Assembly: GCA_037951105.1 (NCBI GenBank)
Contig: JBAMJV010001398.1
Coordinates: 248,001-312,000 of the forward strand
From: Echinarachnius parma
Taxonomy: Eukaryota > Echinodermata > Echinoidea > Clypeasteroida > Echinarachniidae
Length of the DNA stretch: 64,000 nucleotides
Reading direction: 5' to 3'
Each line of letters starts with the position of its first letter. Within the stretch, counting starts at the first letter, position 1. A program made the translations under genes and the position numbers. This document shows positions 1,490 to 52,500 of the stretch, one piece after another. The notes under the pieces are model-generated. The model did no database searches. It saw nothing but the letters and a program-made list of their open reading frames with translations, and was not told the DNA's origin.

Positions 1490-1516
1490 GGTCTAACTGT
1501 TCCCCTTTTTATAAAT

Positions 1517-1582
1517 TTCTGATTGGCTGTTCTGTTTTTCTCCTCTTTGCAGAATAGTTCAGAGAATGAGGAGTCTGTTGGA
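1517..1582 (+). pseudogene. Decayed duplicate of intron end and first 28 bp of exon 1
   Basis: 66 bp match 1624-1689, including a polypyrimidine tract, a cag acceptor (1550-1552) and AGTTCAGAGAATGAGGAGTC. Translation from this acceptor meets a stop before the real acceptor, and no good donor follows. It reads as a tandem duplication of the exon edge. Confidence 0.75.
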
Positions 1583-1661
1583 ATATGTGTTTTGACATTT
1601 GAATTTCTCTTCCCCTATTCTATATTCTGATTGGTTGGTTTATGTCTTCTCCTCCATGCAG

Positions 1662-1795
1662 TAGCTCAGAGAATGAGGAATCTGTTGGATTAAACTCACT
1701 GAGCGCCGAGCATCGGAGGCAGGCCCGTCTCTCCCTCACCGAGTTCTTGGCCGACCCACGCAACTTTGCAGATGACAACTCGGGACAACAGTCCA
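1662..1795 (+). CDS. RhoGEF exon 1 of window (acidic/serine-rich segment)
   Basis: The acceptor is ctcctccatgcag and the donor is A/gtaagt. The exon enters with one base completing a codon and leaves in phase 1. It encodes SSENEESVGLNSLSAEHRRQ followed by ARLSLTEFLADPRNF. I infer an N-terminal linker; no domain is recognised. Since it starts in mid-codon, at least one earlier exon lies outside the window. Confidence 0.85.
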
Positions 1796-4700
1796 GTAAG
1801 TGTCCAATGCTCGTTGCCAGGTTTTGCCAGGTTTATTAGCTTCTAACTAGCGGAGCAATGACAAATGGCTTCTGGGAAGAACCATCGTTAGGTGCACTTA
1901 ATGTAATAGCTCAGTTGTAGAGCATCAGTCTACCTATCCAGGGGACTTTTGCAGAAAGAGATTGATTGTAAGTTACAATTGATAGTAAGTTGGGTCATGT
2001 GGTCTAAATGCGCAAATCTGATTGGTTGAAACACGCACATTTGTTCTGACTTACAATTAATTGTAACTTGCAATCGACTGCATCTCGGTATCATCACTAT
2101 CAGAGAAAAGGTTGGAAAAAGTGTGTAACCTTTGCATTTAAGTGAGAAATGATAACAATAAATGCTCCATAATGATGTTAGAGTGGAATCCTATTTCCTA
2201 GTATCCGTTTAGTTGGGGATTTATCAATTATGTTGGTTTGTTGGATTTCAGAACAAAGAAAAGCAAATAATTTTTGTAAGAATTGAACATGTTCTTGTTG
2301 TTGATGTAATGTTTCCCTGAAAGCTTTTGCCTTTTCCACGATGTACATTGACATGTTGTTGTTGTTATGCAATATTTCATAGTAGAAGATTTCATTTGAA
2401 GATTTTACCTATTCTGGACTACATTGAGCATGTTGTTGTTGATGCAATGTTTTCCTTGAAAGATTTACTTTTCCTGATTTACATTTTCTTTCCTATCTTA
2501 CATTGATTACATCGTTGATGTAATACTTCTACATATCACTGCATCATTTGTCTCTGATAAAGATCCTTCTCGGTTCGAAAGCTCTGGCTCATTTTGGCAT
2601 TTTATATAGTGGATAAGCAGCTCACAGCAGTTTGTGTCTATTTTCTAAACATGTTTGATTGTGATGTTCTTGTTGATGTAAAGCCCTCCGCACACAGAGC
2701 CGCCTTGACCCGATCCGACTGGTCTTCAGTCAGGCTAGAGTCGGTTTCGCTCAGTCGTAGCCGATTCAACATGTTGGATCGGCCTCGTATGATCTCCGAC
2801 TGGCTCTTGACCAGCATAACAGGAGTCCTGAGGCAACGTATACTGAGCTGAACCAACTGAAAACCAGTCGGATCGGGTCGAGTCGGCTCTGTGTGCAGAG
2901 GGCTTCCTAGTTTCTTCTCATCTCTGAAAATGATTTTGGTGTTATTGTTGTAATGTTTCCCATTATCTCTGATCACAATGTTGTTCTTGTTGATGTTATG
3001 TCTTTTCTTATCATGAAAGGAAATGATTTTGTTGTTGACCCCTTATCTTGTATCGTGCTGTGGTTCTTGTTGATGTTATTTTTTTCTTCTCATCACTGAT
3101 TTCGCTGTTGATGATGTAATGTTTCCCCTAATATTTGATTGCAATGTTGTACTTGCTGATGTTATGTTTGTCTTCTCATGCTTTAGTTGTTGATGATGTC
3201 TTGTTTCCCTTGACAGATAACCAGATGGAGCCTGTCAAAGGGTCTGTGCTGAGGAAACTCAGCTTCCTCAAAGTCGGGGGACAGCGGAGAGAAAAGAAGG
3301 TATGGTCCACTTTAACCCATTAGCGACTTATCGATTTGCATTTTAACTAGTGGGCTGGTACGTGTATTTAATATGTCACGCTTAAAGGGGTCTAATAACA
3401 TTGTCAAAATCCTCAAAACTTACTTGGTACTCTAGCAGTTCTCACATACCTTATTGTATTTGTATTACCAATAGAAGCATGGAACAGCTTTTGGTTTTCT
3501 AAAAGTCTATTCCGTTATAAAGATATGTATGATTGAAGTGTCCAGATATATAATTATCTCATGGATAATTATAGATGTCAGTCAATGAGTTAGCGAATGT
3601 CATTTTGCATTTTTTGCTACAATTACTACAGTCATTTACGGTTTACCATGGAATTTTTACACATCACTCACACTCAGTGGACATATCAGATCACATAAAT
3701 ACACATTTTATCAACTATTTGGCACTTGATACATGTATATGGACAAAGAAAATCGAATAAAATTGAATTGAATGTTATAACTATATGTATGTAGAAAATA
3801 AAATTATATGAAATGAAAAAGAATAACATTAAAATATTATGTTCTTCACCCCATTGTTAATCTTTGTCTCCTGCAGGAAAAGAAGGAGAGGGACAGGGAG
3901 AAGGAGGAGAAGAAGGAGCGGGAGAGGGAGAAGGAGAAGATTAAAGACAGCGTCAAGCAGCAGCAGCATCACTTCGTCAACTCATCGTTTTCTAACTCAA
4001 CAAAGTGCAACTACTGCGAGAAGCCGCTACAGAACAAACCCGCCCTACAGTGTCAAAGTCAGTTTAATAGTTAATCATTGTAATGATACATACATAGCAA
4101 TTTACTTGAATATTTGGCATCACATAGAGAAAGCTCAGACCTGAAATTAAATTAAATCATAGGCGCCCTGTTCAGGGGCGCATTATTACCCTTGGTCATC
4201 AGGAACAGCGCACCATCTCAACTCCCTGGAGAGCATAATATTCAAAGCTGCTCTACTATATATATCTAGGGAGCTACAGGCTAACTAACCCTTGACCAAG
4301 TATCCATTTATACTCCTGGGTAGAGAGCAGCAATGTGGATTGAATGTCTTGCAGAAGTACAAAAATGACGAGACATGGATTGGGTTTGAACTCGGGACCT
4401 CTATAGATTTGAAGTCAAGCGCCCATCCAATCGTGCACATCACCTCCATAAGTTTTACATCTACATGTAGTTACAGTTTTAAAAAGAAGTACCTTTATAT
4501 AGGGACAGTGGGAATCCTAATATTGACTCCCTCTCTTTTTTTGTTATTTGTTAATTTATTTATTGGCTTTCTTCTTTTGGTAATTGGTTAACTCCTTTGA
4601 GTGCTAAGGTCACATATTTACACTACACAAGACACGCAATTGCCATAGAGGTATAAAATATCTGGCATTCAGTTAATGCAAGTTTTTCTTTGTGCACCTT

Positions 4701-7700
4701 TCTCATTTTTTCTCTAGTATGTTATGCAAATGTCCACAACAGCTCATGTAAGGATAACCTAGCGCAATGTACGCGGCTCACCAAGCATCCAAAGTCGGTA
4801 AGTTTACCAATCTTCAAATCTTTCATTTTCATTCACATAGTTTTGTATTGATACCATATCTTTACTGTACACCTGACCCCGGTTACATCAAACTTTTCCT
4901 ATTGCTGTAAATGTCCAATTATTGTAACTACACTGCTGGGTTGGCTAGCAGCCAATCAGCATTGAGCATTGTATATAGATATTGCCATGGTAGTAACAAT
5001 AATTGGACGCTTGCACAAATTTGAAAAGTTTTATGAAATGGGGGCCAGGATTTTTGTTTTTGGAATTACTGCAATAATGTTTGAACATCGTTGCAATGAT
5101 TGAATGTGTTAGTGTGTGTATACATTGTATGTGCCTATTTTTCTTTTTCTTTGTGGGTAATGTCTAATTTCTATGGTTATCTGTAGAATAAAAGAAGTAT
5201 GTATGTTTGTGTTCATCCCTTGCCTACAGGTATCTAGTGGGCTTTGTAAAAAGTCTACCTGGATTTCAGAATCGTAAAGGGAATGGGTTAAAATGATATT
5301 GTCAAGAGGACTACAAAACACCTTGCATTGTGTCATCCCCAACATCCACGGCCCATTAGCGGAGGATGTACATGTATTAACTAATGCCAAGTCGCAAACG
5401 GTACCAAAACAGTTAATTAATGTAGAGCGGTATTATATAAGGCCGACAAATGTCAGATTAGTACTACATACATAAATGTCAATCGGGTTAGATAGAGGGA
5501 GAGAGAAAAGGAGATCTGTCTTTATAAAGGATTGTGAGAAGGAAGGAAAGTAATATGTAATGAAGAAAGGGGGTGGAAGACATATATGATAGAGAGAGAG
5601 AGGGGAAGATAAATGCTAGTTATTAAAGCAAAGAGAGACAAATTAAAACAAATGCAACGTACAGGAAGTGTTACATGTGAGAAAATGAACGAAAATAGAA
5701 ATATAATAGAAGGAGAGAGAGAGAGAGAGGGGGCAGAGAGGGAAAGGGAAATCTTATACGTTCATGATTTTTAGAGGGTTATGTATGACTATGAGGATTA
5801 GATAAGATACATATTATAACAAGAGGGGTAGATTAATGTCAGGAAGAGAGATATATAATATAAAAAGAGAGAGAGAGAGGGGGGGGGGGGGGAAGAGATA
5901 GGAAGTAGAGGGGGAGAAAAGGGTTGTCTAATTAGTGAGCGTGTTACCGTATTGTTATTTTATAGGATCTTGTAATTGTAGGTGGCGGTTTAATGGATTA
6001 ACAAAGGTTCAAATAAAAGAATCTCTAAATGTGCTTTAGTTTGTTCCTCCATCATTTTTGTTTCTTTCCAGATAGAATGTGTTATTTTTTAAAGTAAAAA
6101 ATAGATTATATTCAGGCTTTCTTTCTGAGAATGTATCATTTATCAATGATATATAAGTTGCAATTAATTGAAAGTCAGATCTGGGCCCCGTTGCGGAAAG
6201 AGATGCAATCGATTGTAAAGTTGCAATTAGTTGTGAGTCAGATTATGTGACTATATGCACAAATTAACAAGCTAGTGCATAACAAGCATGTTGCCATGTA
6301 TGGTACACAAGCAAGTTACTATTCTGTTAAAGATGCTGCCCTCTGAAGTGACGAGCCATGCTCTATAATATTTGTATAAAGGACTTCCTAGAAACATCCC
6401 CTTCTCTCTCTATCCATGCAGGTGTTTTGTTTTACCCCAAATCAAGTCATCCTAGTAAATTTACTATGTAGACAATGTGGTAATTGTTAACTAGAGCATA
6501 AACAGTATGGTACACTAGCATGCTATCATACATGTACATGTAGGTAGTGGGCAGTGGGTTAAAGATACTGCCCATTGAAGTGACGACCCCGCCTAGCTCT
6601 TTAATATTTGTAAGGACTTCCAAGAAAGATCCCATGCTTCTGTATACCCATGCAGGTTTTTTTTTTTTTTTTTTACCTCAAATCCAGTCATATATCTTAG
6701 TAAATACGGACTTTTCGATTTGTACGTTCACTAGTGGACTGGTACAGTGACGTCATTTTTTTAAGCAGTGCGCATGCGCATCTACGTGCCCGTCGTTCGT
6801 ACCAGATCTAATACGTGTACACCCCTGTTTTGCCGTCGGTCTAGATCTGTGACGACAAGCACTATTTGGCTACTAAAAACAGCGTCATATATAGCTGTAT
6901 ATTTCTTGTTTCTCTGCTGTGGTCTCTGTAAACAGGTTAACTGAACTATATGATTTAAATGAACTTGTCTATAAAGGTTACCTGTTTATAGCGTCCACTA
7001 TTCTTGTCTGCATTGGGTGGTCACTATACACAGGTTTGACTATATATCATTTTAATTCTATGGAGTCTGTCAATAATAAGTCACCTGATTATAGCGCCCA
7101 CTTCCATGCATTGTTTCATTTGGATGGTCACTATACACAGGTTTGACAGTACACTGTGTTATGAAATTTGTCTATAAAGGTCACCTGTTTATAGCGACCA
7201 CATGTCTTGTTGCACTTGGGTGGTCACCATACAAAGTTTACTGTTTATGATTTTATGGAACAGGTCTATAAAGGGCACCTGTTTATTGCGGCAAATGTTC
7301 TTATTTTCCTTTGGTGGTCGTTAAACACAGGTTTGACTGTAAACAATATGTTGGCACCTGTCTATAAAGGTCACTTGCAATTAAGTGTCAATTGTATTGT
7401 TTCCATTGAGTGGTCACTATACAGAGGTTTGTCTTAATAAGATTTTATAGAACCTGTCTATAAAGGTCACCTGTTTAGAGCGGCCATTTTTTTTTCATTC
7501 CATCTGGTGGTCATTATACACAAGTTTGACTGTAAACGGTATTTCAAAACCTGTCTACAAAGGTCACCTGATAATAGCGGCCAATTTTCTTGTTTTCCTT
7601 TGGTGGTCTTTCTACACAGGTTTGACTGTAAACGACTTTTCGGAACATGTATTTAAAGGTCACCTGATCATAGCGGCCAATTTTCTTGTTTTCCATTGGT

Positions 7701-10700
7701 GGTCATACACAGGTTTGACTGTAAACAATATTTCGTAACCTGTCTATAAAGGTCACCTGGTAATAGCTGCCAATTTTCTTGTTTTCATTTGGTGGTCTTT
7801 ACACACAGGTTTGACTGTAAACGGTATTTTTGAACTGTCTGCAATGGACACCAGTTTATAGCTGCCAATTATTCATATCCCTTTGGTGGTCATTATACAC
7901 AGGTTTGACTGTATGTTGGCACCGGTCTATAAAGGTCACTTGCAATCAAGTGTCAATTGTATTGTTTCAATTGAGTGGTCAATATACAGAGGTTTTATAG
8001 AACCTGTCTATAAAGGTCACCTGTTAAGAGCGGCCATTTTTCTTCTTTCAATCTGGTGGTCACTATACACAGGTTTGACTGTATTGGATATCAAAACCCT
8101 TTTTTTTACAAAACTAATCTTCTATTCTCTGCAAACTTCGCACGAGCAATGCATGGCGTAACTATCCCGAGACTTGAACGCGCGTCGTCGTATGAAATCG
8201 AAAAGGTAAATAGCAACAGTCAACGTGCCTAGTCAACTCAATGTGGTACTTCACTGGGACGACAGGTCAACGGTCCTCGTATCAGCGATCGAAAACTCCC
8301 TAATGACTGTTCCTATTTTGCCAGTGCACTAGTCTAATACCTTGACAATAATGGTAATTGTTAACTAGTGCATACACAGTATGTTACCATGTATAGTACA
8401 TGTATATTAGCCGGTTCTTGGTTAAAGATACTACTCTCTGTATTGACGACCCAGCCTCTTTAATATTTGTATAAAGGATTTCCAAGAAAGATCCCCATAA
8501 TGCCTCCCTACCCTTGCAGGGGTTTTACCTCAAATTAATTCTACAATAAGTAAATTACTGATCCTATTTTGCCAGTGCACTATACAACAATGTGGTAATT
8601 GTTAACGAGTACATGTACATAACCAGCAGGTACGTTGCTTGTATGTATGGTACATTAGCAGGTCCTGGGTTTAAGATACTGCCCTCTGAAGCAACGACCC
8701 AGCCTCCTTTAATATTTGTAAGGATTTCCAAGAAAGGTCCCCATGCCTCCCTACCTTTTCAGGGGTTTTTAGCCAAAATCCAGTCATATCTTTAATAGTG
8801 AATTACTGATCCTATTTTGCCAGTGCACTATACCTAGACAATGTGGTAATTGTTAAAGAGAGCATAAACAGCAGGTTACCATCCATTGTTCACCTGTCCA
8901 TGGGGTGTCATGCATGGCCAGCTCCTATAGACCACAAACAAAATACATCAAATAGGCTAGGTAGTATAGACCAGGAACTCCTTGGGATCATAGACATGTT
9001 GGGATAGACTCACTATTAGACCACGACTTGAAAATTAGTATAGACTCTCCTTGTATGATGGACCCTTTATTCTTGTTTTATTTGTACCCCTAAACTGCAA
9101 GCAAACATATGTAATATAGGCCAACTAGATAGACTGTATCTACGATTTGATGATACGCAACCTATAGACTGTCTTATAAACAAAGGTCTTAATTAGCAAA
9201 AACTTTTCATACAAATGTAATTTACTACCAACTAAACCAGTAAATGAAAACCTTGTAATTTCATTTAATCCATTTTCCACATTTTGCATAAAAAACAAGA
9301 ATTACAATTTGATAAAACTGGTATACTTTATTATGTCTACAACGGGAACAACACAAAACACACTTCTGTACATACATGTACTGTAGATTTACCTCTCCAC
9401 CCCTCCCTTGACACCATAACTACTTGAAACTTTAAACTACATGTAAGACTTTTTTTGTGGTGTAGGACTCGAGGTTTAAAAACTTATTGCATAGTTGCTC
9501 CCCCCCCCCCCCTCTCCCCTGTCCCCCTTTCCTCCTTTCCTACCTCCCTCCTCCCCTACGGCCCTCCTCCTCTACGGCCCTCCTCCTCCCCGGTCCCCCT
9601 TTCCTACCAATCATCCTTCTTTCTGATGATGAAGAGATGATCTTTGAAAGTTGCCTCACCATCACATGAGTTAACACCGGCTATTTGATTTCGGTGTAAC
9701 ATGCATTCTCCATGGAGACACCAGCTGTAGCACAGTATTTACAGGTGCAGTCCTGAAAGCGTTAACCCGTTTCCCCGCTAGATTTTGCAATTCTCAAATA
9801 TAGAGTTAAAGGGGCTTAGTAACATTGTCCAAATCCTCAAAATAGAATTTTAATTCTAGCGGTTCCCTTATACCTTGTTGTATTCGTATTAACAATAAAA
9901 TCATGGGACAGGTTTCAGTTTTTCAAATTTCCCTTTCGTTACAAAGATATGTATGATTGAAGTATTCAGATAAGAAAAACTCTGGGCGAGTTTTTCTTCC
10001 CTGTACAAAGTGAGTGCAGTGAGTTACTGAATATCACTTTGCATTTTCGCTCATTACTTGGCTATACAATGTCCATTTGACTTGAAATTTTCACACAATA
10101 CCCTGTGGACATATGAGATAACATCAATATACATTGTATCAACCACACATCACTTTTTGCACATGTCAACAAAGTTACTAGATCCCTTTAATGCTGGACC
10201 CACCATGTCCGTGGAAGCAATATTGGTCAAGAATTGCCAATTATATTTGGCTTACATGCACTTTGAACTGTGTGTCTGGCTAGCTAGGTGTTATTAAATG
10301 TTTATGGTTTGGATTAAGTATCGATTGTAACATACATGAAACTGTAGTGTGTATATGGTGAACAGTTGGGAAGGCTTTAAAACATACATGTATATCACCT
10401 CTCTTTGGGCTTAATATGTTGGTATATATATGTTTTTCGTTAATAAGCTGTCTATGTTAATTCTTGTGAATGATTGTGAGCTGTGAGCTAGTACTTGTAG
10501 TAGTTTTATCAAGAAAATATATTTTTAAGGGAATCATCTTTTTGCTGGTTTATTTAAATATATTAAAACTATAATAGCGATTGCTTACAGTTACAGTTTA
10601 GAGAAGGGAATGGAAATATGTTTCAATAAATATTTCAGTTTAAATTGTATTTCAGGTCACTCATTCTACCACATTTTTCAAGTGTGGCACCAGCGTGTTA

Positions 10701-13700
10701 ATTTGACAAAGTACATTAGTATTATTAGAATAAACAAGTTGGTAACCAAATACCTTTGAGTTATTTCATTCTTTTTTCAGTTCAAGAACCAAGAAAAGAG
10801 CATGTACGTGGGTAATATGTCCAGACAGAAATAGAAGTACATGATATTAGCTAGAGTTTAGATTCCAGGCAATTAAACCAGGCATTCCAATGGGCAATAT
10901 AAAACTTCATGTTGAAACTGTAGGGGCCGCCAGACCCCCATTGTGATAATTTTCAAATGAATAGTCAATACAGAAAAAGACTATTATATCCAGAGTGTGT
11001 AAGAGAGGGAGAGAGGGAGAGAGGGGGAGGGAGAGAAATAATATAAAGCTAAGGGGTAGAGAGAGAAAAATAATCAATAAGAGATTAGAACAACTCTGTT
11101 ACAAAGCAAGTGTCAGTGCATGGTCCACTGTAGCGATCAATGCATGTGTAATATGTACGTCTGTGTGCGGTTAGGCTTTGGGTCTCTCGGCACCCTATGT
11201 GTTCCCCTCTTCCACCCCCTCTCTCCCACTCTTTTTCCTTCTCTCCTTTTCTCTCTTGGTATCTCCTTTTACGTGTTGGTCTCTCCCTTTCTCTACTGGT
11301 CTCTCTTTCCTTGGTGGTAAACTCAGCGGTAGAGTCGGCCAGAGGGGAGCCCGTGTTCGGTTTAGCACAATAGAGAGTGGTTGCACTGGAATGCAGGCAG
11401 GCCCTCTCTCTCACCCTCGACAGAAAAAAAAAAATACAGAAAAGAAAAAAGGAGCGTGAAATTTTGGTGTAAACTGTACAATTCTCCCATGTGCACTAAC
11501 TACTTGTGCACGAGTCATGAATTTTGTATTGATAAAGGAACCATGCTGGAACAATTTGATGCAAGCCTACATCTGATGAGGAATTTTGTTATCTTGTGAG
11601 GATGATGATCACTGGAAAAACTTGTTGCATTCATTCAGTTTCAAGCGGTAAATTATAAACTTGTTGGGAGTCTTGCTCTATGGTTATAATCGTGTGATTA
11701 TCCTGCGACGTTGTTGGCCAATCTCCTCCAGCTCAGGTGGAGTTTGGAAATAGGATTACAACTCGGTATTATTGATTCTGTGTTGCCCGTTTTAACACCT
11801 TTTCTGCTTTGTCATGATAATGTTGAACAGTTAGGGTCGGGCTAAAAACTACTTAGGGTCATTCTGTGGACCTTAAAGACCCATTTAGTATAGTCATCTT
11901 TGATTAGTTGAACTTTGAAGACTCAATTACTATACTTATAGTTATTTTGATCGTTTGGACTCAATTATTGCAATTGTTCTCAAGATTGTTATCTATACTT
12001 TGAAGAATCAGTTATTATAGTTATTCAGATTTGTGTGACTTAAAGTTAAAGACACAATTACTAAGAATACTATAGCTTAATACATCTTGATTGTTTGGAC
12101 TCTGCAAAGACTCATTGATTGTGCAGTTGTTCTAGATGTTTGATAGGGGTCTGGTAAAAGTGCGGAAGTCGTGAAATGCATCATCTGGATTTACTTATCA
12201 AGTGTACGTGTGACTCGAAGTTGAACTAGCAAGCTGTGTGGCATTGGCCTAGCTTGGCTTGCTGGCTCGGCCTGTTCCTGTGTATCATGATGGAGCTACC
12301 ATTAGGCTATTACAAGCAGCCCCATGGGAAACTCATATCAAAATCAGTGAGTATATTGTATATATACAGGTATAGTAATAATAATAATAATACAAATCAA
12401 TTCTTATAAAGCACAATATATTACATTTTAAGTCTCAATGCGCATATAAAACTAACTTAGAGACCAATAGGATGAGTTTTTAAGCACAATTCAGTAGTTC
12501 AAATAAAAGGAGACAACATAACATTCAATTCCATGGGATGACTTTTGGTGGGCACTGTAAGCAGGTTGGCTGCTATAGACAGGTGGCCACTAAGACAGGT
12601 TTGACTGCAGATTGAGTCAGTGTTTTATTTTGTGCAATATACAATGTATGTTCCAATACCGCTCTGATATCCAGGCTGTTTTTCAACAGGACCCGTGGGA
12701 AAAATTCATACTGAAATTAATTAAGTGCTAGAATAATTGTACAAAACAAAGAGAGAAAAAAAAACAATCTGTAGGAACATTATGAGAGTAAACAAAATCA
12801 TTTAAGCAAATTTAAAACAAAAAAGTATATTTTGATTGTATACCCTGACCTATCTTCACCACAGGCATGTACAGGTGTGTATTTACTCGGCAACATTGTG
12901 TTGATGTGGTTATAATGGTATTGACATGGATTATTTTAGATTGAACCCAGTAACCCGTTCAGAACTGGTCCCAAAGTACATGTAACTCTGGCTGTGGAAT
13001 ATGCAATATACAGTTACGTACCATACCGTAATGAATAACTGGTTAAGGCTAAGGTTAAATGTTTGAGGGGAAAAAATGAAATATGAATTCAGTTATAATT
13101 GAATTGTATTCTTAATTCATTTATTGAATGTTATAGATTAGGTAATAAAAGTATACATGTATTTTGTTATGAAGAGAAATAAAACTGGCAACCATGCATT
13201 CCCATTAAACAATAATGCCAACAAGCTGCTGAGAATTTAATTAATGTAATTCGGATCATGACAGACTAACTGGTGCATATACATTGATGTACTGTGTATA
13301 ATAGAAATGTGATAATGATGGTGATATGGTCCATTAAGCCAGACAATATTGATATATTATTAACACAATGTATGGATACGCTATGGAATATGGAAATAGT
13401 TCATTCTTATACCTGCCCATGCACTGCTGGCTATGAATTAGTTGAATACTTGAATTACTTTATTTGTCAAAGTGATTATTTGTCAAAGTGATTATTTGTC
13501 AAAGTGATTATTTGTCAAAGTGAATGCGAACATGTGGAGCCAACTATAAAATGAAATGGTATCATAATTGGTTTATGCTTGGAATTGACAAACACTTTGT
13601 GATTAAAAGCGAACCCCACCACTTTAATACTGAAGTGGAGTTTGAAAGTCAGCATAAAGTCATGAATGTTAAATTGTGTGATAACTGCATGTGAGACTTG

Positions 13701-38461: not shown

Positions 38462-38538
<77 letters not shown>

Positions 38539-41500
38539 GAGTATCATCAACATCATCATTTTCTTCTCTTGCTCCTCCCACTCCTTGACGTAATCTTCCT
38601 CATCACAGCAACATCATCATCATCATCATCACCAATGTCTTTCTCATCATTTGACTCTATTGACGACCGAACGTTATCACCATTTCTTATCTCTCCACTC
38701 TCGTTCAGGCCGGGGAACAACAACATCAACTTCTCTACGGAATCCCTTGATGAGGTGGGCGCCTCCGAGACGCTGGACTTCATGGAAGATGATGACCTGG
38801 TCACGCAGGGCCCCGAACCGGAGTCATGGAGCGTCACGGCCGAGAAAAAGGTACAGTACAATATCAATTATCACCTTTTGCAGAATACCATGAAGAAATG
38901 CGCCAATGGTAAAAGGGGTTAACCCTTTGAAATCCAGCCCTCAAAGTACTCTGGCAGGTGTCAGAGAAATAGTCTTCACCAAAATCTTATACCTTCAAAC
39001 CTGCAGTAGTGGCAACCTGTCTATAGTAACCAACCTCTTTACAGTGGCCATTAAAAGCGACCCCCTGCAGTGGAAAACAATATTATGGAACCTGTCTATT
39101 AGAGGCCACCTTAGGTGGTCACTATACACAAGTTTGACTGAAGTACATTGTAGTTTTCTTGAATGGGTTGAAACCAGTGTATAGGATATTTGTGTATATG
39201 TTAGTTTTGATTACGGATACTATATTATGAGTGTACAACATGAAAGTGTACTAGGGTAGGGGTGTAAACAGTAAAACCATGATGGGTGCATGAATAAGAT
39301 AAGGGCCGAGGATCGTTAATGAGCTCAGTATGAGTGAACTTGGGCCGTTGCCAGGCCATGCATACTATGCCTTAACCCATTCGTGATATTTCAATGCCTG
39401 TATCACATGCATTCCCCATAGACTTCCTATTGAGACATCTTTGACTTGGTTCTATATGGGTTAACCATCCATGCCGCAAGATGATCGAGATAGATAATGA
39501 AAGGATTTCAGCCCGAGAGACGGCTCAATGTTTAATATAGAGTAGCATAGGCCTACACATACACACGCACATTCAAATTTAAGGCTGTTTATTGCTATGA
39601 CATATATTTCATGTTAGCGCTGTTTTCATTCATTGACAGACACTTTGGCAAGACCTAGAATACTAACACGGTTGTGGGGTGATAGGAAAAAAAAGTTGTT
39701 TTATATATATAAACGAATACTCGATTTAGAGCTGTTTATTCCGGATTAGAACATGTCTTGAAAAGGATAGTATCTCTAAATACTGTATACAGTAATCGCT
39801 TGCGCTCCGAGACTTTTTGATGAATGTATTATCGCATAAATAAATGTCGCTCACAGTGCCTACAAACATATGCTCGATTGACTCATCAAACAATACTCCC
39901 ATGATTAGGATATGGAGCGCAATATTGATTTAGACGCCACAGAGATTGGAGATATATATATAAATATATAGATGATCTTGGTCTGTCTGTCTTTGACACG
40001 GCTACTGGTGTCAGTACTTGAACACAATAATTTAGAAACTTGATCTCAGGAGAAGCGAACGAACGAACAATACCCACACTTTGACTGGCCATCATTCATT
40101 ATGGAGGTACCTAGTGGATTTCGTTCTTCTTGGCTTCCGGATGCTGGAGAGCGGAGAAGTTATTCCATCCAGGTATACACATACAGTCGAACTTGTGTAT
40201 ATACAGTCGAACTTGTGTATATACAGGGTGGCCCACAAATAACGGAACGGGGTACTTGCCATACTAAAGACTCATGATGCCCGCCATACTGCATCGAGTA
40301 ACGATCAACCGTGCGCCATTGTGAGTGTGCGTTCAGCTGTGTATAGAGAAGAAGGGGTACTAACAATGGCGCACGCATTGAACGTTACTAGTTGCTATGA
40401 CGGGCATCATGTGTCTTCATTATAGCAAGCACCCCGTTCCGTTATTTCTGGGCCACCCTGTATAGTGACCGCCTACATGTATAAAGGGAAACAAGAATGT
40501 TTTGGAGATTAATTATGTTTGTTTTTTTTCTCTTTATGAATTGTATTATAATGTGCATGTAGGTATTAGGCTTAATTCCAAAGTTCATAAAAATGTTAAT
40601 ATTTCGGGGTCTCCTTTGCAGACTTTGAAGACAATTGTAATATTGTTTTGTTCTGTTTTTTAATGACTATGACGAAAATATGTTGTAAAAGAGTTTTTTC
40701 CTTTATAAATTCAATTAAAATGTTCATGTACTGTAGGTATAAGACTTGATTCCAAAGTTTAAAAAACAATCCAATATTTTGTCTCTTTTTTTTCCAGACT
40801 TTGAAGAAAATGAGCAGTAAAGAGATCAAGAGGCAAGACGTCATATTTGGTGAGTTAATTCACTCTTTAATTGGTTCCCTACTAGATTCCGCAATCCACA
40901 GAGAGTCAATATGAGAGCCACCAGGCTCTAGGCAATAGGTTTAAAATTGTTTGTGTACCTTTAAGGCACTTCAGGTGTTCCTATCAATGAAGTATGTTCT
41001 TATTTTTCTCGCTACCGTTCTGTTTTGGGTGTCTGTATGACTAAATGCCATATTTTGTATGGCGATTTATGTCAACTAACATCACAAAAATACATTACTT
41101 GTTGATTTGAACTTTTGTTTATGTCTAAAGAGTTTATTTTCAAAACTATAAATATTTTGTAAGGAAATGCTTTAAACCTACATGTTCTTTTAGATGTACT
41201 TTAAACCCACAAGTATCGTCATAGCTATAAAATACACACTTGTTGATGTGAGCTTCATTTTATGTCTTCAGAGTTTATTTTCCAAATGAAACCCTAAATT
41301 GACAATTAATTATTAAAACAAATTCATTTTCTTATTTTCCACAAGTTTGATAAATATTTTGCTCATGTGTATTATAAAATACTAGAATTCAGTTATATTT
41401 TTGAGATACATGTACAGTATGACGACTGTTTATACGTTAATTAGGAATGGAAGCTTTTGTAAGAGTTTCTTTATTAAGTGAATCTTATAATTACAATATT

Positions 41501-43432
41501 AATTTTCTAGTTTATAGATATGAAGGTGTGGTGACATTTTACCTTTTTTTAACATAAACAATCCCTGAATTTATCAGGGGGTGTTTCACAAAGATCGTAG
41601 AACTTAACTAAGTTGAACTTCACTTTAATTTGGACTTAAAAGGTATGGAAAGCCATTTGTAGCCTTGGAATAAAATATATTCAAAAGCAAAAATGCAAGT
41701 ATTTTAGACTTTTCATACATATTACATCAAATACATGAAATCCCCTTGATGATATTTTTAAGTCCAAATTAGAGTTAAGTTCAACTTAGTATCTTTGTGA
41801 AACACCCCCAGGACAGTAAGCACCATTACACTATATATATATATATACATACATGTATATGTTTAGTAGGAGTGGAAGCCTTCACAAGGGTTTCTTGTTA
41901 AGACATTACTATAAACTACACAAATATTGATCAATCTAGTTTATAAATATGAAGGTTTGGTGACACTATCTTTTTGACATTGAAAATCCCAGATTTGTTT
42001 ATATTTTTATAAAAGCACCATCTTACTATACATACAGTGTATATATAAACTGTTTATTGGTAATGGCAGCCTTTACCAAGGTTTCTTCATTAATTTAATC
42101 CTATAAACTACACAATTGATCATTCTAGTTTATAAATGTGAAGGTATGGTGACATTTTTTCATTGTTTTTTTTGTTGTGTGTTATCAAATTCCCAGAATT
42201 CATCAAGACGGAGAAGCACCATTTGAGGACGTTAAAGATTATGCAGAAGGTAGGATGATTGTTTGCTCATTTTTTTTCTTCTTCGGGTAAATTAATAGCT
42301 TAGTTTTACCTTCATGAAACAACACCATGTTTTCTTTATCTTGTATTGAAATGATTTTTTTTTCTCCTTCAGTTAAATTAATAGCTTAGTTACTTTTACC
42401 TTCATGAAACAACACCATTTTTTGTTTATCTTGTATTGAAATTATATTTTGTTGCCCATTTTTAAACTATAAATAGATTACAAAGGAAGCCTTCTATAAT
42501 TATGCAGTTTAATTTGTAAACAAAATAATATATTTTTTTAAATAAATGGTTTTATTTTGAGCAAAGAAAACTGATGATATAAACATGAAAAAGGAATTGG
42601 CTTAAATCTGTTCGTTTGATTGAACTCATTTTTACTAAACTTGATTAAGAAAATGCTTTACTCTCATTTGCAGAAAAAATTACAATTATGCAAGACTTTG
42701 AATTCTGCTACTTAGTTTATTTACAAGATAATTTGCTTTTTTTGTTTGGTTTTAATTGTTTGGTTTTAATTATAAACATAGAAACGTGCTTTTAATTGTT
42801 TGGTTTTAATTATAAACATAGAAAACTCATGAAATAAGCTGAATAAATGCAACAAAAAAAGAAAACGTCATACCTCTCTCTTATTAATTGAACTCATTTT
42901 ACTTACTAAAGAACCAATCATTCAAGTTAATAGAAAGATGTATTAAACCTTTTTGTATTGTTTTCTTGTCGCACTATTATCAAAAGTGCTATACTTCCAT
43001 TTGCAGAAAATTACAAGTTTTTGTAACAATACTTTCCCAACTTTTCAGATCTTCAGCTACGGGATGCAGAACGAGCTGCACATGGACCAGGGACTCATCA
43101 AGAAGGTCTTCCCCATGCTCGACGAGATCGTCGACATCGCCTCAAAGTTCAACGAAAACTTGCAGCGACGACAGAAGGAGGCCGAAGTCGTGGAGAGGAT
43201 AGGTGACATCCTGGTCGATCAGGTAAGGAGATGATGATGGATGATGATGGTGGTGTTGATAGTGATAATGATGGTTTTGTTGATGGCAATGGCGATGATT
43301 GAGAAGATGACAATGAAGATGGTGATGGTAGTAATGATGATGATGACAACAGCAGGCATGGCGAGGATGACAACACTGATGACAACGACTGGTGATGATG
43401 ATTTTCTTGATTTTGTTGATATGTTTATGTTT

Positions 43433-43488
<56 letters not shown>

Positions 43489-43500
43489 GATGAAGATGAA

Positions 43501-43566
<66 letters not shown>

Positions 43567-46500
43567 AGGGATGGTGTAATGGTGATTCCTTTCTCCATTC
43601 ATATACGAGTTTCCCTACAATTTGAATTCAGCTAATTTTCATATTCTAATGAATTATTTCATGTTTTTTACAAAAAAACAAAAGTAAAATTCTTCCAATA
43701 TCTCAGTAGCTTTTTTCCTCAAATGATACTTACAATCTGTTGATGGTTTGTCTCTCTCAGTTTGATGGTGACAATGGGTCCAGGATGGAGCTAGCCTACG
43801 GGTGTCTATGCAGTCAGCAGAACGAGGCCAAGGCAGTCTATAAAGACCTCACCAAGACCGACAAGAGGTTCCAAGCATTCATCAAGGTACAATCATTCTG
43901 CCATTCGCTACTTTAAGTACAGTCAAACTTGTGTAAAGTGACCAACCAAGGGAAACAAGAAAAATGGCCACTGTAGGCAGATAACCTCTATAAACAGGTT
44001 CAATTACATTTGGTATTCTCTGCAGTGGATCACATTTCAACAAAACATGCTTCTGTGTCATGATATGAAGCCAACAAGAAATGTGTTCATCTCTGTCTTG
44101 TTTTAACCTCACTCTAATGCAGAAATGCATGATGAAAGCATACAAACATTGCCATAGTGAAACACTTATCCGAGTTATGAATGCATGACTCTTCAAAGAA
44201 ACATATATATATTTCTTAAAGAAACATATATATATTTCTTAAAGAAACATATATATACTTCTTAAAGAAACATATATATTTCTTAAAGAAACATATATAT
44301 TCCTGAAAGAAAAAAATATATATATTCCTGAAAGAAACATATATATATATATTCCTTAAAGAAACATATATATTTCTTAAAGAAACATATATATGTTCCT
44401 TAAATAAACATACATATATTCCTTAAAGAAACATATATATATTCATAAAAGAAACATCTATATATATTCCTTTTCCTTCTGCTCACAGAAATGCAGCACG
44501 AATGCGCTATGCAGAAGGTGGACGATACCAGAGTGTATTCTGAGCGTGAGCTCCAGATTAACAAAGTATCAGCTACTCATAGAAGCCATTATCAAACCAT
44601 CCAAAGGTAAATTGATTGTTTTGGTTCAGATTAACATAATTCTATTGCACTTAAGTCATATTCAAATGTGATATGGAAATTAAAGATATGACATTTGTTT
44701 CTTTAAAGGGACCTAGTAACTTTGTTGGCCTGTGCAGAAAGTGATGAATGGTTGGTAAAATGTGTAGTTTTGTGATTTGATATGTCCTCTGAGCAATTGA
44801 TGTTATATGGCCAAGTAATGAGTGCAAATGCAAAGTGATATTCCCTAACTCATTGCACTGACTTTGTACATGGTTATGACTATCCAGTGGAGGAGAGTTA
44901 AATATGTGAACATTTTAATTGTAAATATCTTTTTAACGAAAGGGAAATTTGAAAGACCAAAACCTGTTCCATGCCTCTATTGGTAATATGGATACAACAC
45001 GGTATAAGAGAACCACTTTCTTATTAAGTTTTGTGGATTTGAACAATGTCACTAGATCCCTTCAGTAGTTTTACAACCTTTGTGAACTCATGAAGATATT
45101 CATACTTTAAAGTGTTTGCACTTACTTTATAAAGTTTGTACTGTCACTTATGTCGATGAATATGCATTTTATATGATTGTTGTATAATATAATTAATTTG
45201 TATCATTACGTGTTGTTTTTCCAGCAACGAAAGCTGACAAAGAAGATGTCCATGATTTGACCAAAGCCCTCAATTTAGTCAAGGTGAGTGCAAAGTTATA
45301 TGTGGATAATGTAGTAATTCTTTTAATGTTGTATAACTGGAACAAGAAATGTTATTCAATACTTTCAAAAATGTGACTGATTATTTTGCGGTAAAGACAA
45401 TATTTCTGAACAAGAACAAAACAATTGCCAGGAGAAAGTTTCTTGGTTGCTTTTTTAATTGTTATGATTTAATATTGATTAGTATTTGCAAATTTTAAGT
45501 TATGAGTTTCAAATTGTTGTCAACCCATCACAGTCCATCTGCCACAGTGTGAACCTGCAAGTACAGGAGAGGGAGCGATGGCAGAGGCTGATGGAGATCT
45601 ACAACAAGACCGACGCCAGGTCAACGGGGCAGCTCAAGAGCGGCAAGAAATTCAGGGTAAAGACATTATTATTATATAATTTGTTATGCTTTTTATGATT
45701 AATTGATTAATATGATTAATTGTAGATTAAAGGGATAGTTGAGTTCTGGTATAGAGGGCGCTACACAAAATAATTTTTTGTAAGATAAGGAAAAACGGAG
45801 TGTCAAATTCAAAAGAGCATACAATTTTAATGACAGAATAAACTTTATTTGATCAAAATCGGTTAGGAAATGGCTGAAATATCCATAAACATATTATTTG
45901 TAATAATTGTGGGGCCCCACAATTATGCGATAATTTTGAACCAGCCGTAAACATTTTTTTTTGAATGCTTCCTCTTTTCAAAAATTTACAAAAGAGATTT
46001 TTAATTAGTTGTTGATTATCTCTCTACCTAATCACTGTTTCAACAAAACATCACATGCACAATATTTTATTTTAAATGGTTGAAACCGAAATTTTTTTAA
46101 TAGAGAGTAGAGTGTCCTCTTGAGTTTTAACAGGCTTTTTACTTAGTCATTTGTAATTTTGTATTCCTTTCGAGCATGGTGGAGTTATAACTATTAGTTT
46201 GTAATGTAAGGGTGCAGGTTTGGGTTACTAAAATTCAGTTTGACCAAAAGTGTACTGTCTTTACCAGAACTCAACTTTAAGGGTTGTAGGTAAGGGGCTA
46301 AAGAACTCGCCCACGATAGATATGAAAATGAGAAAGAAGATATAATACGAAGGAATGGATGATATTTTTCCGGTAACACCACATAGTTTAGAGGGTGGGA
46401 GATGGGGTAGTCAAATAGAAGACTTGGTTCATGGGTTCTTTCTTGAATATATCCTAATTAATAACTGTGTTACATGTAGTTTTTGTAATGACTGGTGATA

Positions 46501-49500
46501 TGTTTAATGAAAATTTTCCCCATTTTTCTTGCAACCAACAGAAATCGGACCTGCTTCAGAACCGCAAGTTGTGTCACGAAGGGGAGCTGTACTGGAAGAA
46601 TGCCCGGGCTAAGCTGTGTGAGGTCCATGGGGTCTTACTCACAGACGTCCTTTTGTTACTGACAGAGAACAACGGCAAATACACCTTTGCCTCACAAGAT
46701 AACAAGGTATATAACACAGGAGTCCATTCATGTAGATACCCAGGTAACCGTAAACCCATATTTAACCCTAACCCTAACTCGGCCATTCAGAAAAGTCTTG
46801 ATCATAAGGCTTTGTTAAGTCCCTGATAACATACATCTTTCTGCTACTGATAGGAAACAAAAGCATATACAAAGATGATAATTAAGTATGTATAACGTTA
46901 GTCAATACTGCTTCATCCAGTCCTGGCTTCATCTATATATATATATATATATTTAAATGATGTCTTCAATATACTCTTGGCAAGGATGGAATATACTAAG
47001 AAGAAATAGTGAGCATTGAAATGGGTTTCAGGGAACGGCCACCATCAAAAGGGCATTGTGGCATAATGGTTAAAGCGTCCGTCTTGCAATCCAGAAGTCT
47101 TGAGTTAGCTTCCCAGTGAAGCCCAATATCAGTTTGCTCTTTTTCATGTACAGTATATTATATATTTCTGGTCAGTTTTCTCTATCTTTGAAGAAAAAAT
47201 TTCATTATGATTTCATTTTGTTCATTGTTTTCTACAGTTTTCTCTGTCTTTGAAGAAGAAATTTCATCATGATTTAATTTAATTCATTGTTTGCTACAGC
47301 CTGCCGTGATCCCCCTCCTCAAGCTGATGGTGCGAGAGGTTGCCGTGGACCAGAAGAACCTGTATCTGATCAGCCAGCACAAGGCGGGTCCCGAGATGTA
47401 CGAAGTGATGTGCATGACGGAGCACGCCCGCAAGGAATGGAAGAACAAACTGCTTGAAGCCATCGACAAGTGCCCGGCAGAAGGTAGGTTGTACTTGATT
47501 TAACAATTTGGATATAACATGTTACTCTGGTAGCAAATGCTTTGAGGGTCTATCACCATGTTATTGTTTAAATGAATATAAGGTTTAGGTTTGGGGTTAG
47601 GATTAGCTTTAAAATCTTAGTTGGTTTGTAAAATATTTAAAGTAGAGCAATTGTTACACTATTAAGAAAATTCTTATAGTAATTAAAGTGAGGGGACATG
47701 GTTAATGGAACCTGACCTTGGTTTGCTTTTGATGATTATATGTATGCTCATTCTTTTTCATTGTTTTAATTCACTTTAGTAATTTTAAAGATAAAGTATT
47801 ATTAAGGTGTTGGGATGGTTCTGATAATCTTTTGAATGTATAATTCAAATATAGTATGCTCATTACGGTAGAAATTAATAGAAAGGGTTGTCAAAATCAG
47901 CTAAATGCAGAATTATCGTTAGGAGAAATGGAGATGGTGAGAAACAAATTATTATGGTTTTGTGTTCTGTTGTGCTTGTTAGATGAAGGTGTGGAGGCGG
48001 ACGATGTCCCAGAAGTGGACAATGAGGAGGAGATGAGGAAGGAGGCTGAAGCCAGGGCGATCAAGATACAGACCCTGCTCCGTAAGTTACTTGATCTTAA
48101 TTATTTTAAAAAGTACAGTCATTAAATATCCATTTGTAAAGCTATCCTTGTCAATCTCCTAACCTACTGACTGGGACATGGTTTAAGTATATCATTAAAA
48201 TAATATCTGAAAACACACGCTATAAACTTTGTTTTTTAACTCCTTGAGTGGCAAGCTTGCATTTTTGCGAGTTACAATACACACAAATGCCATAGAGCAT
48301 TAAAATCCCTGGCACTTTAAGAGTTAAATACAAAATTAGTCAAATTAGTAAGTGGCAGTTAATATGATATGAACATTTTATCTCCATCTTTTGTGTCCAC
48401 AGAGTTGATGGATGAGAAGGACAAAGAGTTGAACAAGGTCATCTCAGACAAGCTGAAGCTGATGGGAGAGCTGACTGGCCTAGTCAGCAAGGAGGACTCA
48501 TTAGGATCGGTGAGTAGACAAACAAATATATATCATGACAATGATTCAATGGAGTCAAGGCCCAAACCAGCCCATGTTTCCATCAGCAAAGCACTTTATT
48601 ATAATTTGATACTTAATGGGCGTCTGGCTGGCATTTATTCCTTGTAATGCTAGTTAAAGTAGTTAAAACTAGTTAAAGATTCCCGGTTTATTTCAGAGCA
48701 GGAATCACATATTGATACAACATTATAAAAAAAACTTTTCTTTGTACATGATGGTTCAAAGACATTGTGTGAAATAAATTAGTGAATGTTTCTCTCTTCT
48801 TTTTCTCCATGTGTAATAAAATGCAATTGAAGATCCCAGTATTCAACATTCTTCTTCCATTCTGTATTTTTTCTTAAATCTAGTTAAAGATTCCTGTTAT
48901 TTCGGAGCAAGAAACACACCTTGATCAGACGAGAGACCTCATCCTAGCTGCAATGAAAGAAGGTAGGCATCCATACATTAAACATATCGCTACTTGTAGG
49001 CCACTTGAGTTATTGCACATACATGTATAATATCATTATAGGAGTGAGATGGACAATTATCCATACATTACTTTATCATACGTGACCGGCTATAGCAAAA
49101 CCCGGCACTTGTCGGTAATTCATGTTTTGAAGAAATTGGCATTTTAAGTTCACTCAATGTGTGTAAAAGACCTACATTGTATGATTGTAAAATTGAAACA
49201 ATCATATCTTCGCCAATTATTGACCAATTAGTTAGAACAAAGCATCAAATGAAAGCTTGTGATGAGGCCTTTCTAATGGTATGACAATCTACATTTTGAT
49301 TTTTACCGACAAGTGCAGGGTTTTGCTATAGCCAGTCACATATAGTCACTGTTATATTGCAGACAATTGTATTAATTTGGTATGAATTGAGATTTAATTT
49401 CAGTGTAGGTAAATGGGAGTTTTGTAGGTATTAGTTCCTGGACTGGTATGCTGTGACGTCACATGTAGGTTGCGCCTCCACACTCACTTTACGATCACTA

Positions 49501-52500
49501 CCCAACCTCTAGCGGAGGGCAACGTCATGTTGGTCAAATCCATGTCGTTCTCACTTGGAAAATGGGTAGTGATGCACTACAGGCATTTAGAATGACTACT
49601 GTCATGCATTTATAGATGAAAGGGTTATAACTGCACATTGCATGCACTGCAGTATACTTGTATTGAGTATAATTGAGAACTTTAGTTTGACTGTAGACAT
49701 TGGGTATTTGTTATTTTATTGTAAACTTTTGATTATTTGGGAAGCATGTGGATTTTCATTGGTACTTCTTTCTTCTTAGATGTATAAATTATGTAAATTT
49801 AGGCTGCACTTTTTTATTTTAATGACATCATCTTACATTCTGAATATTCATATGGATGTTTATTTGATTTAATATAGGTTATGATGTTACAGAGGTCCAT
49901 CTTAGAAACTTGAGACCGTAAACATTATACCTGTATTACCACTTTTATCACAAAGCACAGAGGTTTTTAAAATTTTATTCTATTTTCAGGAAGGGTTATT
50001 TAGAAAAATAGAGGATTCATATTTTAATCATTTATATCTTTTGCATGGGTATATTCTTCACAATACTATACTATTATGTAATCTATCCCTCACTTCTCAC
50101 ACCCCCCTCTCTATACCCCACCCCCAATGGTTACCAATATCTACACCCCATCTCACCCCTACTCCCCCTCTCCCCCCTCTCCTCCTGGTGTTGGTGAATG
50201 CAGCCCACCTATTGACGCGGTCTATGTATGCCAGTAGTACCGGGGGTCTGTCGCGGAGCGCGAGTAGTGTCGGAGAGCGGGTCAATCACGGGTCGGCGGC
50301 GTTACCGCGGAGAGCCGAAACCTTCAGCGGTTTCGATAGTTCGCAGAACGGTGAGAATTAACTGCGTGAAGGGAATTGCGATGGTAGCCTGTCGATGACG
50401 GCTCCAGAGATATCTTCGGCCAAATTTTAATAAATACTCAATTCAAATTGTCTTTTATGGGTAAAGGGAATTGCCTTTCTCCATACCAACTAAAATTATT
50501 TGGAACTTAAAAGTTTTTCTTGGTCCTTATTGTTTTCCTTCAACTAATTGATGCATGAATCAGGAGTTGGGTTTTCAAATTTCTCCTTTTACATTGAGAT
50601 ATTTAAGATTGAATTTGATTCAACTGTGTACAAATTCACTGTCATGATTTAGTTTGCATGATCCTTCATATCGTAATAAAAAAATACCATTATGATATCT
50701 TGGCTGTATGAATGGGTAGATGGCAGATGAATTTACCCACCCTGCACCAGTTATGGCAGGCTGTGGTAATGAAATGTAAAGTATCTTTAAATGAAATAAC
50801 TTTATACACTTAATTCTTAAAAAGCAATTATAGGTTTGAGAAGTTATTTATAATATCACAGCATAGCAAATATGTTCACCAATCATAATAGAAGATAATT
50901 CTGATCACAAAGTTGTATTACTCTGCACTTTAAAGACATAGTATTATTTGTCAAATATCCATGCATTATCCACACAATTATCTGTAATCCATGGTGCATT
51001 TTTAATATAGCCAATTTCTCACACAGTTCCCCACAATGATAATTTTAAGTGCTTTTGTTTGACCATTCACAATTTCTAGATTAGTCTCAGTTTGATGATC
51101 TGCATCTGTTTAAATAACAGTCAATTTATGATCAAATACAATTATGAAGCTAATTGATTTTTACATTATATTTTCGGACAGCGTTGTAATTTTCTTATAT
51201 ACAAATGACTGTATTGCAGATTAGCTGAAAAAACAAAAGTCACAATAACAATGTATTTAATTAAGAAGCTTGGCAATGCATGTACATGTAAGTCCTGAAT
51301 CTAGATTCTTGTGTAAGGGTCATGTTTTGCCAACTTATGACTACCCGACGGAAGGAAGTTTCCCAGTCCCTTTATCTGTAAACTTTCTTTTACTACTTCC
51401 ACTGGACCTAATGATAATATACATGTACAATGTACATCAACTGAAAGTCAAGGTGACTTGCAAAAGTGATGTTTAAGTTTTGATATAATTATTATCATTG
51501 TTTCTGATATTGCAGGTGTGTCCAACAAGAAGCGGCTAGTGGTGATCCAGTCGGACGCTGCGGCCCGCAGCAGCAGCTTCCCCAACCTGATGGGGTCGGC
51601 CTCCGAACAGCTGGCCGCCTTCACCCCACCCCTGGAGGCGCAGGAGGCCAGCTCAGAGGGGGATCTGGATACCCTTCCTACCCTACCCACCAGCCCCAAC
51701 TCCTCCACCACCACCACCACCATCACCGGCATATCCAGTCTGTCCACCACCCCTGCTCCGTCGGAGGGGGGTATGGAGGGTGTGATGTCACCGGGTCTTA
51801 GCCCCTCCCACCGGCCGACCAGGGAGAGGGACATGTCGCTCCCTGTGACGGGGAGGAGTCGGAACAGCGAGGCCAGCCGGAGGCGGGCGTTCACGCTGAC
51901 GGGAGGAGTGGTGAGTTTAGTTTGGTCATCAAGTGTAGACAGACTGATTTATTTCTCTTTGATCTAGGCGCCTAGGCATTAATTTAATGGACCTCATGAG
52001 ATTGTCTAAACTGATGTAGACAATTTTTCAATTAACCTCTAGAGATTTGTCTTAAATTTGATATAGAAATGTATTCAATGTATCTTTTCAGATTTGTCTA
52101 AACTGATGTAGACATTAATTTACTGAACCTCTAGATTAAATGTGCTAAATGAATCTAATGAGATTTATCTGTATGATTTGTCTAAACTGATATAGACAGT
52201 AATTTACTGAAACATGAGATCTGTCTAAGTTGATGAACTGATGTACACAGAAAGGGCAAAGCACCTATGTGGTCTAAATTGCTAGTGGCCTCGTAGAATG
52301 TTACAATTATTAGATAATATTAATTTTTTGTATCTGACCATCTGTTCTTTGTGTATTTTCCGTTGCTAGGAGCTTCCATCTGGGATCCCAGAGAGTGAGA
52401 TGTCAGACTTGCCTGAGGGACCTATCCCCGCTGACATGATCGAGAGAAGTGAGTTGTAGTTTGTATTGTCCACCTCATCTTGATAATCATGCTTTCTGTG

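Follow-up and report, generated by a model that had tools for sequence, protein, structure and literature searches.

Tandem duplications across exon-intron junctions in a putative RhoGEF gene and in other loci of the echinoderm Echinarachnius parma

Introduction

The closest described counterparts of the duplications reported here are the mirages of amphioxus, tandem units that lie across an exon-intron boundary. According to the report on globins BflGb6 and BflGb9 (PMC3087553), the units in a globin gene are 150-160 base pairs (bp) long, occur at both boundaries and are 81-100% identical; haplotypes with 6 and with 3 units exist, and splicing is normal. It also cites mirages with units of 10-72 bp in Adh3, and a second report (PMC3902484) adds PGBD5, with units of 60 and 108 bp, and troponin C. 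We analysed a 64,000-nucleotide (nt) stretch of Echinarachnius parma (GenBank assembly GCA_037951105.1, contig JBAMJV010001398.1, positions 248,001 to 312,000, forward strand; hereafter the window), in which a large RhoGEF-like gene carries tandem copies of the same kind at several exon edges.

We conclude that the junction-spanning copies are probably mirages, that is, tandem units across an exon-intron junction that arise neutrally and are tolerated, at both exon edges; we put the probability of this reading at roughly three in four.

Results

Copies at the exon edges of the gene

The window holds one large plus-strand gene, of which 28 exons were placed from the sequence (1662..55231, +; numbered as in a first-pass annotation of the same DNA). 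All 27 junctions are GT-AG, and a single open frame runs through every exon and ends with a stop codon at 55231. Translated together, exons 1-19 gave a protein that matched the Pfam domains C1_1, RhoGEF (1-180 of 180, full length) and PH_16 (3-127 of 128), and the part encoded by exon 13 is like AKAP13 and ARHGEF2; judged by this predicted protein, the gene is a C1-RhoGEF-PH gene of AKAP13/ARHGEF2-like type. Because exon 1 opens at an acceptor, the gene start and further 5' exons must lie upstream, outside the window.

Each acceptor, represented by the last 60 nt of the intron and 30 nt of the exon, was compared with up to 1 kb of upstream sequence and with 100 dinucleotide-preserving shuffles, and the donors were treated as the mirror image, with the target downstream. 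At a significance cut-off of z > 4, nine of the 28 acceptors (exons 1, 2, 7, 8, 11, 13, 15, 19 and 22) and three of the 27 donors (exons 7, 12 and 13) were positive, and the same nine acceptors and three donors exceeded z = 4 when the test was rerun with the floor of the standard deviation set higher. At ten acceptors (exons 1, 2, 7, 8, 11, 12, 13, 15, 19 and 22) the observed score was reached by 0/100 shuffles. Acceptors 12 (z = 3.4) and 23 (z = 3.7) were weaker, neither exceeding z = 3 in the higher-floor repeat; donor 9 gave z = 3.3, and donor 18 passed the exon-only test alone (z = 4.0). In the exon-only test, exons 1 and 22 scored z = 11.2 and 10.2, and exon 11 was not significant (z = 1.7). 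The 1-kb upstream test found no acceptor match at exon 25 (z = -0.5) or exon 10 (z = -0.2). Mid-intron samples of this gene passed in 16/144 cases upstream and 25/144 downstream; acceptors were above this baseline (p = 0.008) and donors were not (p = 0.58), while the direct comparison of acceptors with donors gave p = 0.10.

The copies that span a junction in the window are those at acceptors 1, 11 and 22, perhaps that at acceptor 12, and one at donor 7 (Table 1). At acceptor 12 an inserted repeat lies between the first and second copies, and few exon bases match.

The first-pass annotation had reported that intron ends are duplicated at about ten exons, naming 1, 2, 7, 11, 12, 13, 15, 19, 22 and 25 and possibly 8 and 10. 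Nine of these were recovered at z > 4 and exon 12 weakly, but exons 10 and 25 dropped out. Nor is the list a single phenomenon: it mixes minisatellites (exons 2, 7, 8, 15 and 19), an intron-only copy (exon 13) and the junction-spanning duplications. Inclusion of exon sequence, claimed for exons 1, 11, 12 and 22, is clear at 1 and 22 and comes down to 14 aligned nt at 11 and a few bases at 12. Donors do have the lower count, as had been stated, but the GAT tract after exon 13 is not their only case, since donors 7 and 12 also pass and the junction-spanning copy at donor 7 had been missed.

Rates at control loci

The mitochondrial sequence of the assembly (1.2 Gb, 14,790 contigs) agrees with an echinoderm host. 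Its sole COX1 match, on contig C14600, is followed by a tRNA-Arg called by ARAGORN and then by ND4L and COX2, both identified by eye; this is the gene order of echinoderms. TGA encodes tryptophan there, and AAA and AGA stand at an Asn and a Ser position of the PRMNNMSFW stretch of PDB chain 5j4z_BN, in keeping with NCBI translation table 9. A contaminating mitochondrion is unlikely, as the assembly gave no second COX1. For comparison, the assembly was searched for exons with RhoGEF, myosin, kinesin and SNF transporter domains. Of 370 exon rows, 362 were used, after exclusion of four myosin duplicates, one kinesin row and three SNF rows with several internal stops; a sugar transporter family with 9 rows was left unused. 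From these, 24 regions were taken in a non-random draw (the 20 with most rows per 10 kb and four picked from the next batch), and together with seven RhoGEF loci they gave 107 rows. L019, L032 and a single exon of L035 were duplicates, and their removal left 29 control loci with 98 rows. Edges with less than 150 nt of target were excluded, and so were sites whose splice score did not exceed 1, which removed 14 acceptors and 4 donors. The strict junction-spanning class required at least 10 nt of alignment on each side of the junction. At least three domain-search rows, in L020, L023 and L024, were themselves partial copies taken for exons.

At z > 4, 26/81 acceptors and 23/89 donors of the control loci were positive, as were 44/329 and 51/329 mid-intron samples, which may include unrecognised exons. 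Taken together, 49/170 edges exceeded 95/658 mid-intron samples (p = 3.5e-5), an approximately twofold enrichment on both sides. Bootstrapping over loci placed the difference from mid-intron at 0.09 to 0.28 for acceptors and 0.04 to 0.18 for donors. Edge matches occurred in all four domain families and in at least one instance in 27/29 loci, and junction-spanning matches in 24/29. The excess remained when the three loci in which an exon row was a partial copy were removed (acceptors 23/71, donors 20/77, mid-intron 38/285 and 43/285). Tandem copies are thus commoner at exon edges than in mid-intron outside this gene as well, so that a chance occurrence in one gene, which the first-pass annotation had considered, does not account for them.

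The ratio of edge to mid-intron matches was 2.0-3.3 at scores of 45-70 (p = 0.02-0.06; score 70 was reached by 6 edges only). That exon sequence decays more slowly could not by itself account for the enrichment at edges, since a simulation of this effect gave a 1.11-1.17x excess against the 2-3x observed. As the ratio is kept at the most similar copies and the simulated effect is this small, a real excess of edge copies, in origin or in survival, seems likely.

A preference for acceptors was one of the explanations that the first-pass annotation offered for the clustering in this gene: acceptor regions might be specially prone to duplication through their pyrimidine tracts or R-loops. The acceptors of this gene, which stand above the mid-intron baseline where its donors do not, speak for it, and in the strict class a mild lean is possible. 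That class comprised 39/170 control edges, 24/81 at acceptors and 15/89 at donors (p = 0.067), and with the window included 27/109 against 16/116 (p = 0.042, uncorrected); the lean came mostly from kinesin loci (10/36 against 4/38). Over all control matches, by contrast, acceptors and donors did not differ (p = 0.40; locus-bootstrap difference -0.07 to 0.19) and both lay above mid-intron, and the donor arrays, which do not sit at acceptor pyrimidine tracts, are left unexplained by the pyrimidine-tract idea. We therefore regard a special proneness of acceptors as unlikely. In this one gene the clustering at acceptors probably reflects, for the most part, sampling from a process at work on both exon edges.

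Anatomy and decay of the copies

In an ungapped scan of the control loci, arrays at an exon edge had a median period of 185.5 bp, with 21/26 in the range 140-230 bp and 2/26 below 120 bp. Intron-only arrays had a median period of 81 bp (20/72 within 140-230 bp and 47/72 below 120 bp). An exclusively edge-linked 185-bp class was considered and dropped, because a gapped scan finds long-distance copies within introns too and the difference is one of proportion only.

The copy covered a median of 50% of the exon and more than 90% of it in 2/55 cases, so that whole-exon duplication with both splice sites, as in mutually exclusive tandem exons, was not the pattern found. Differences between exon and copy amounted to 13.8, 10.7 and 21.7% at codon positions 1, 2 and 3. 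This pattern fits one constrained exon and one nearly free copy. The best copies were 72-96% identical to their originals, and the core dinucleotide was lost in 8/43 mapped best copies. AG was kept in 24/30 junction-spanning copies compared with 140/201 AG elsewhere in these alignments (p = 0.29), and GT in 21/23 copies compared with 132/205 other GT (p = 0.009, uncorrected); up to five copies of one array entered these counts, which are not independent. In donor copies of the control loci, positions -1 and +5 matched in 70% only, despite the GT count. Position -6 was equally low, and the cases are too few to claim weakened decoy donors.

If selection retained the copies because they function as alternative partial exons, or as alternative or reserve splice sites, the high retention of GT and the AG count would be accounted for. 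So would a kinesin exon in L020 (5691-5852), whose downstream copy (5924-6052) is 92% identical over 127 nt and has a good donor (score 8.7). That copy has a poor acceptor (score -3.4), however, and amounts to a half exon that the domain search took for an exon; the copies usually lack a second splice site, some have lost the core dinucleotide of the first, and the exonic differences are only mildly biased to the third position. Retention by selection is accordingly improbable in our judgement. The decoy function entertained in the first-pass annotation draws weak and mixed evidence: GT retention favours it, while AG retention does not differ significantly from that of other AG and the exonic parts change almost as unconstrained sequence does.

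Comparison of haplotypes

The assembly separates some haplotypes (L018/L019 and L007/L008), which leaves room for heterozygous segments that were falsely placed in tandem. L018 and L019, apparent haplotypes, share collinear blocks that are mostly 93-96% identical (one block of 735 nt at 83%), and a 284-bp donor duplication is common to both. An array present in both haplotypes speaks against assembly errors, as do the identities of the copies, mostly lower than those of the collinear blocks, the occurrence of several copies of units of about 185 bp, and the absence of N in the loci checked. An assembly artefact is very unlikely. Chance similarity of T-rich or C-rich sequence, to which the low scores at exons 8, 12, 13 and 23 would be open, is hardly credible given the ten acceptors that no shuffle matched and the lower mid-intron baseline, and it is refuted by alignment for exons 1, 11, 19 and 22.

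A further partial copy of an exon lies 526 bp downstream in L019, in a stretch absent from L018. L023 and L032 are 89% identical over 7.7 kb, and their allelism is assumed from this similarity. Each has three units of a 170-bp array, the third far more diverged in L023 than in L032; an initial count of two against three was dropped upon recounting. Instability of the arrays is weakly supported. A search of the assembly with positions 46542-48200 for a second haplotype of the window returned the window itself and a dispersed repeat only.

Other arrays and features of the window

The remaining tandem arrays of the gene are listed in Table 1 with the junction-spanning copies. Those near acceptors 2, 7, 8, 15 and 19 have periods of 22 to 86 bp and hold no exon sequence; they are ordinary intronic minisatellites, a class separate from the mirages. 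The arrays near exons 10 and 25 stop short of the exon, by about 80 to 150 nt at exon 10 and by about 150 nt at exon 25.

Table 1. Positions of tandem copies and arrays at or near exon edges of the RhoGEF-like gene, in window coordinates.
Feature	Position	Strand	Remarks
Junction-spanning tandem duplication (mirage), acceptor of exon 1	1497..1692	+	distance 110 bp; 31 nt of exon copied
Junction-spanning tandem duplication, acceptor of exon 11	40524..40811	+	distance 174 bp; upstream copy contains TTTGCAG and 14 nt of exon start
Junction-spanning duplication, acceptor of exon 22	48663..48926	+	distance 211 bp; about 42 nt of exon upstream, with an indel
Junction-spanning duplication, donor of exon 7	26038..26343	+	copy 131 bp downstream, good GT, 24 nt of exon; diverged third copy
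Three diverged copies of the intron 11 end	41446..42215	+	last copy ends at acceptor of exon 12; z 3.4
Two 62-bp copies of the intron 18 end	47173..47299	+	each ends in CTACAG; second abuts exon 19; exon sequence absent
23-bp minisatellite, 12 copies	44190..44465	+	23 nt separate it from exon 15
Diverged tandem units, period about 45/86	2910..3209	+	end at acceptor of exon 2
Short-period array (40/70)	25837..25994	+	ends just before exon 7
22-bp minisatellite, intron 7	28866..28970	+	ends 236 nt before exon 8; exon 8 acceptor region resembles it weakly
Two intron-only copies 333 bp apart	42656..43035	+	near acceptor of exon 13
Two 86-90-bp units	42270..42450	+	donor side; start about 20 nt after exon 12
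GAT/ATG tract	43230..43566	+	after exon 13
TCA tract, intron 9	37993..38559	+	leaves about 150 nt to exon 10; a second, short tract lies at 38600-38631
Diverged 84-bp array, intron 24	52002..52220	+	gap of about 150 nt to exon 25; no match to the edge

Part of the intron 9 TCA tract (38408-38553) is the reverse complement of part of the intron 13 ATG tract (43421-43566), at 86% over 146 nt. The two tracts flank exons 10-13, and a pre-mRNA in which they paired could loop these exons out, which would favour skipping or a circular RNA.

Positions 47011-47192 hold a dispersed repeat that is tRNA-like by eye and was not called by ARAGORN. It occurs at 90 further places in the genome, and on some contigs, C6623 and C9124 among them, its copies follow one another in tandem at a spacing of about 287 bp. 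The 62-bp duplication before exon 19 begins within the last part of this repeat. A tRNA-Ala (AGC) gene lies at 53066-53141, inside intron 25, and is followed by what appears by eye to be the same short tail as that of the dispersed repeat. Intron 4 contains a long inverted repeat (9806-10186 and 13812-14192) whose two pairs of arms, 166 and 185 nt long, are 90% complementary, and related stretches seem by eye to recur in other introns. At 27759-27901 a 20-bp minisatellite is followed directly by about five TTAGGG-like units of telomere type, and this array sits within an inverted repeat of about 27690-28140 that was recognised by eye.

Discussion

Junction-spanning tandem copies are real, both in this gene and in most of the loci sampled from the genome; their kind is known, and the host group is new for it. 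In the reading that we prefer, neutral and tolerated mirages, a unit spans the junction and repeats part of the exon and its splice site into the intron, on the upstream side of an acceptor or the downstream side of a donor. The duplications would arise from ordinary replication or recombination errors. Their tolerance would follow from the copy being only half an exon: it brings a single splice site and has no partner at its other end, so that exon definition would fail for it and the complete exon would still be joined. If a decoy at a distance of 185 bp were used, the resulting exon would exceed 300 nt.

Several points weigh against this reading. The twofold excess at exon edges is unexplained by a neutral account, and the retention of GT in donor copies exceeds that of other GT where plain neglect predicts no such difference. 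Among 35 pairs in which the copy keeps its core dinucleotide, the weight matrix scored the authentic site as the stronger in 17, so that strength alone cannot explain the choice of site; splicing past the copies is itself assumed. The control splice sites came from a weight matrix trained on this gene and not from transcripts. The strict class shows a lean to acceptors. The window gene, which was not chosen for exon density, has fewer strict edges than the control loci (4/55 against 39/170, p = 0.0098): either the rate varies, or the choice of row-rich loci raised the control rate. For edge matches of any kind there was no difference (12/55 against 49/170, p = 0.38). The ungapped scan placed 0/21 arrays of the window at an edge, because the junction-spanning copies there are too diverged for it. 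Finally, L023 and L032 do not differ in unit number.

A stronger version would make exon edges hot spots of a distinct duplication process at both exon ends, with a unit of about 185 bp (about one nucleosome repeat or Okazaki fragment) and about twice the mid-intron frequency, which would maintain a stock of half exons, splice signals included, from which new exons and introns could form. We regard this version as doubtful, and an origin of the 185-bp mode in nucleosomes or Okazaki fragments is speculation.

Mirages have previously been described for a few lancelet genes, and if about a quarter of the exon edges of one echinoderm carry them, they are far more widespread. Two questions could then be addressed in a single genome: by what means the splicing machinery selects the correct site when several near-copies are present, and whether introns and exons arise steadily from junction duplication. 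A practical warning is that gene predictors may mistake partial copies for exons.

Three other known systems invite comparison. Rogers' proto-splice model reportedly holds that introns can be gained by tandem genomic duplication, with the RdRp gene of potato as a case. As in that process, a duplication within a gene carries splice signals here; unlike it, the copies lie in existing introns and no new intron is seen. With tandem exon duplication and mutually exclusive exons the copies share exon sequence in tandem, but here about half the exon is repeated, usually with one splice site. Ordinary intronic minisatellites also account for the arrays inside long introns, and they differ in a period mostly below 120 bp and in the lack of exon sequence.

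The likeness to the mirages of amphioxus is closer. A unit spans the boundary at 39/170 control edges and, in the window, at acceptors 1, 11 and 22 and at donor 7; both boundary types are involved, and AG and GT are kept. PMC3087553 and PMC3902484 likewise describe tandem units across 5' or 3' exon-intron boundaries, many copies with AG or GT, and imperfect copies in globin and PGBD5. The former source shows haplotypes of amphioxus with different unit numbers; here L023 and L032 have three units each, and L018 and L019 share one array, with one partial copy in L019 only. Searches of the open-access literature gave no recognisable report of mirages in an echinoderm. Unlike those of amphioxus, the copies described here have a period mode of about 185 bp and an echinoderm host, occur in 24/29 sampled loci, and come with a measured excess over mid-intron sequence. 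What is new relative to amphioxus is thus another phylum, a rate, a mid-intron comparison and acceptors that are not clearly special.

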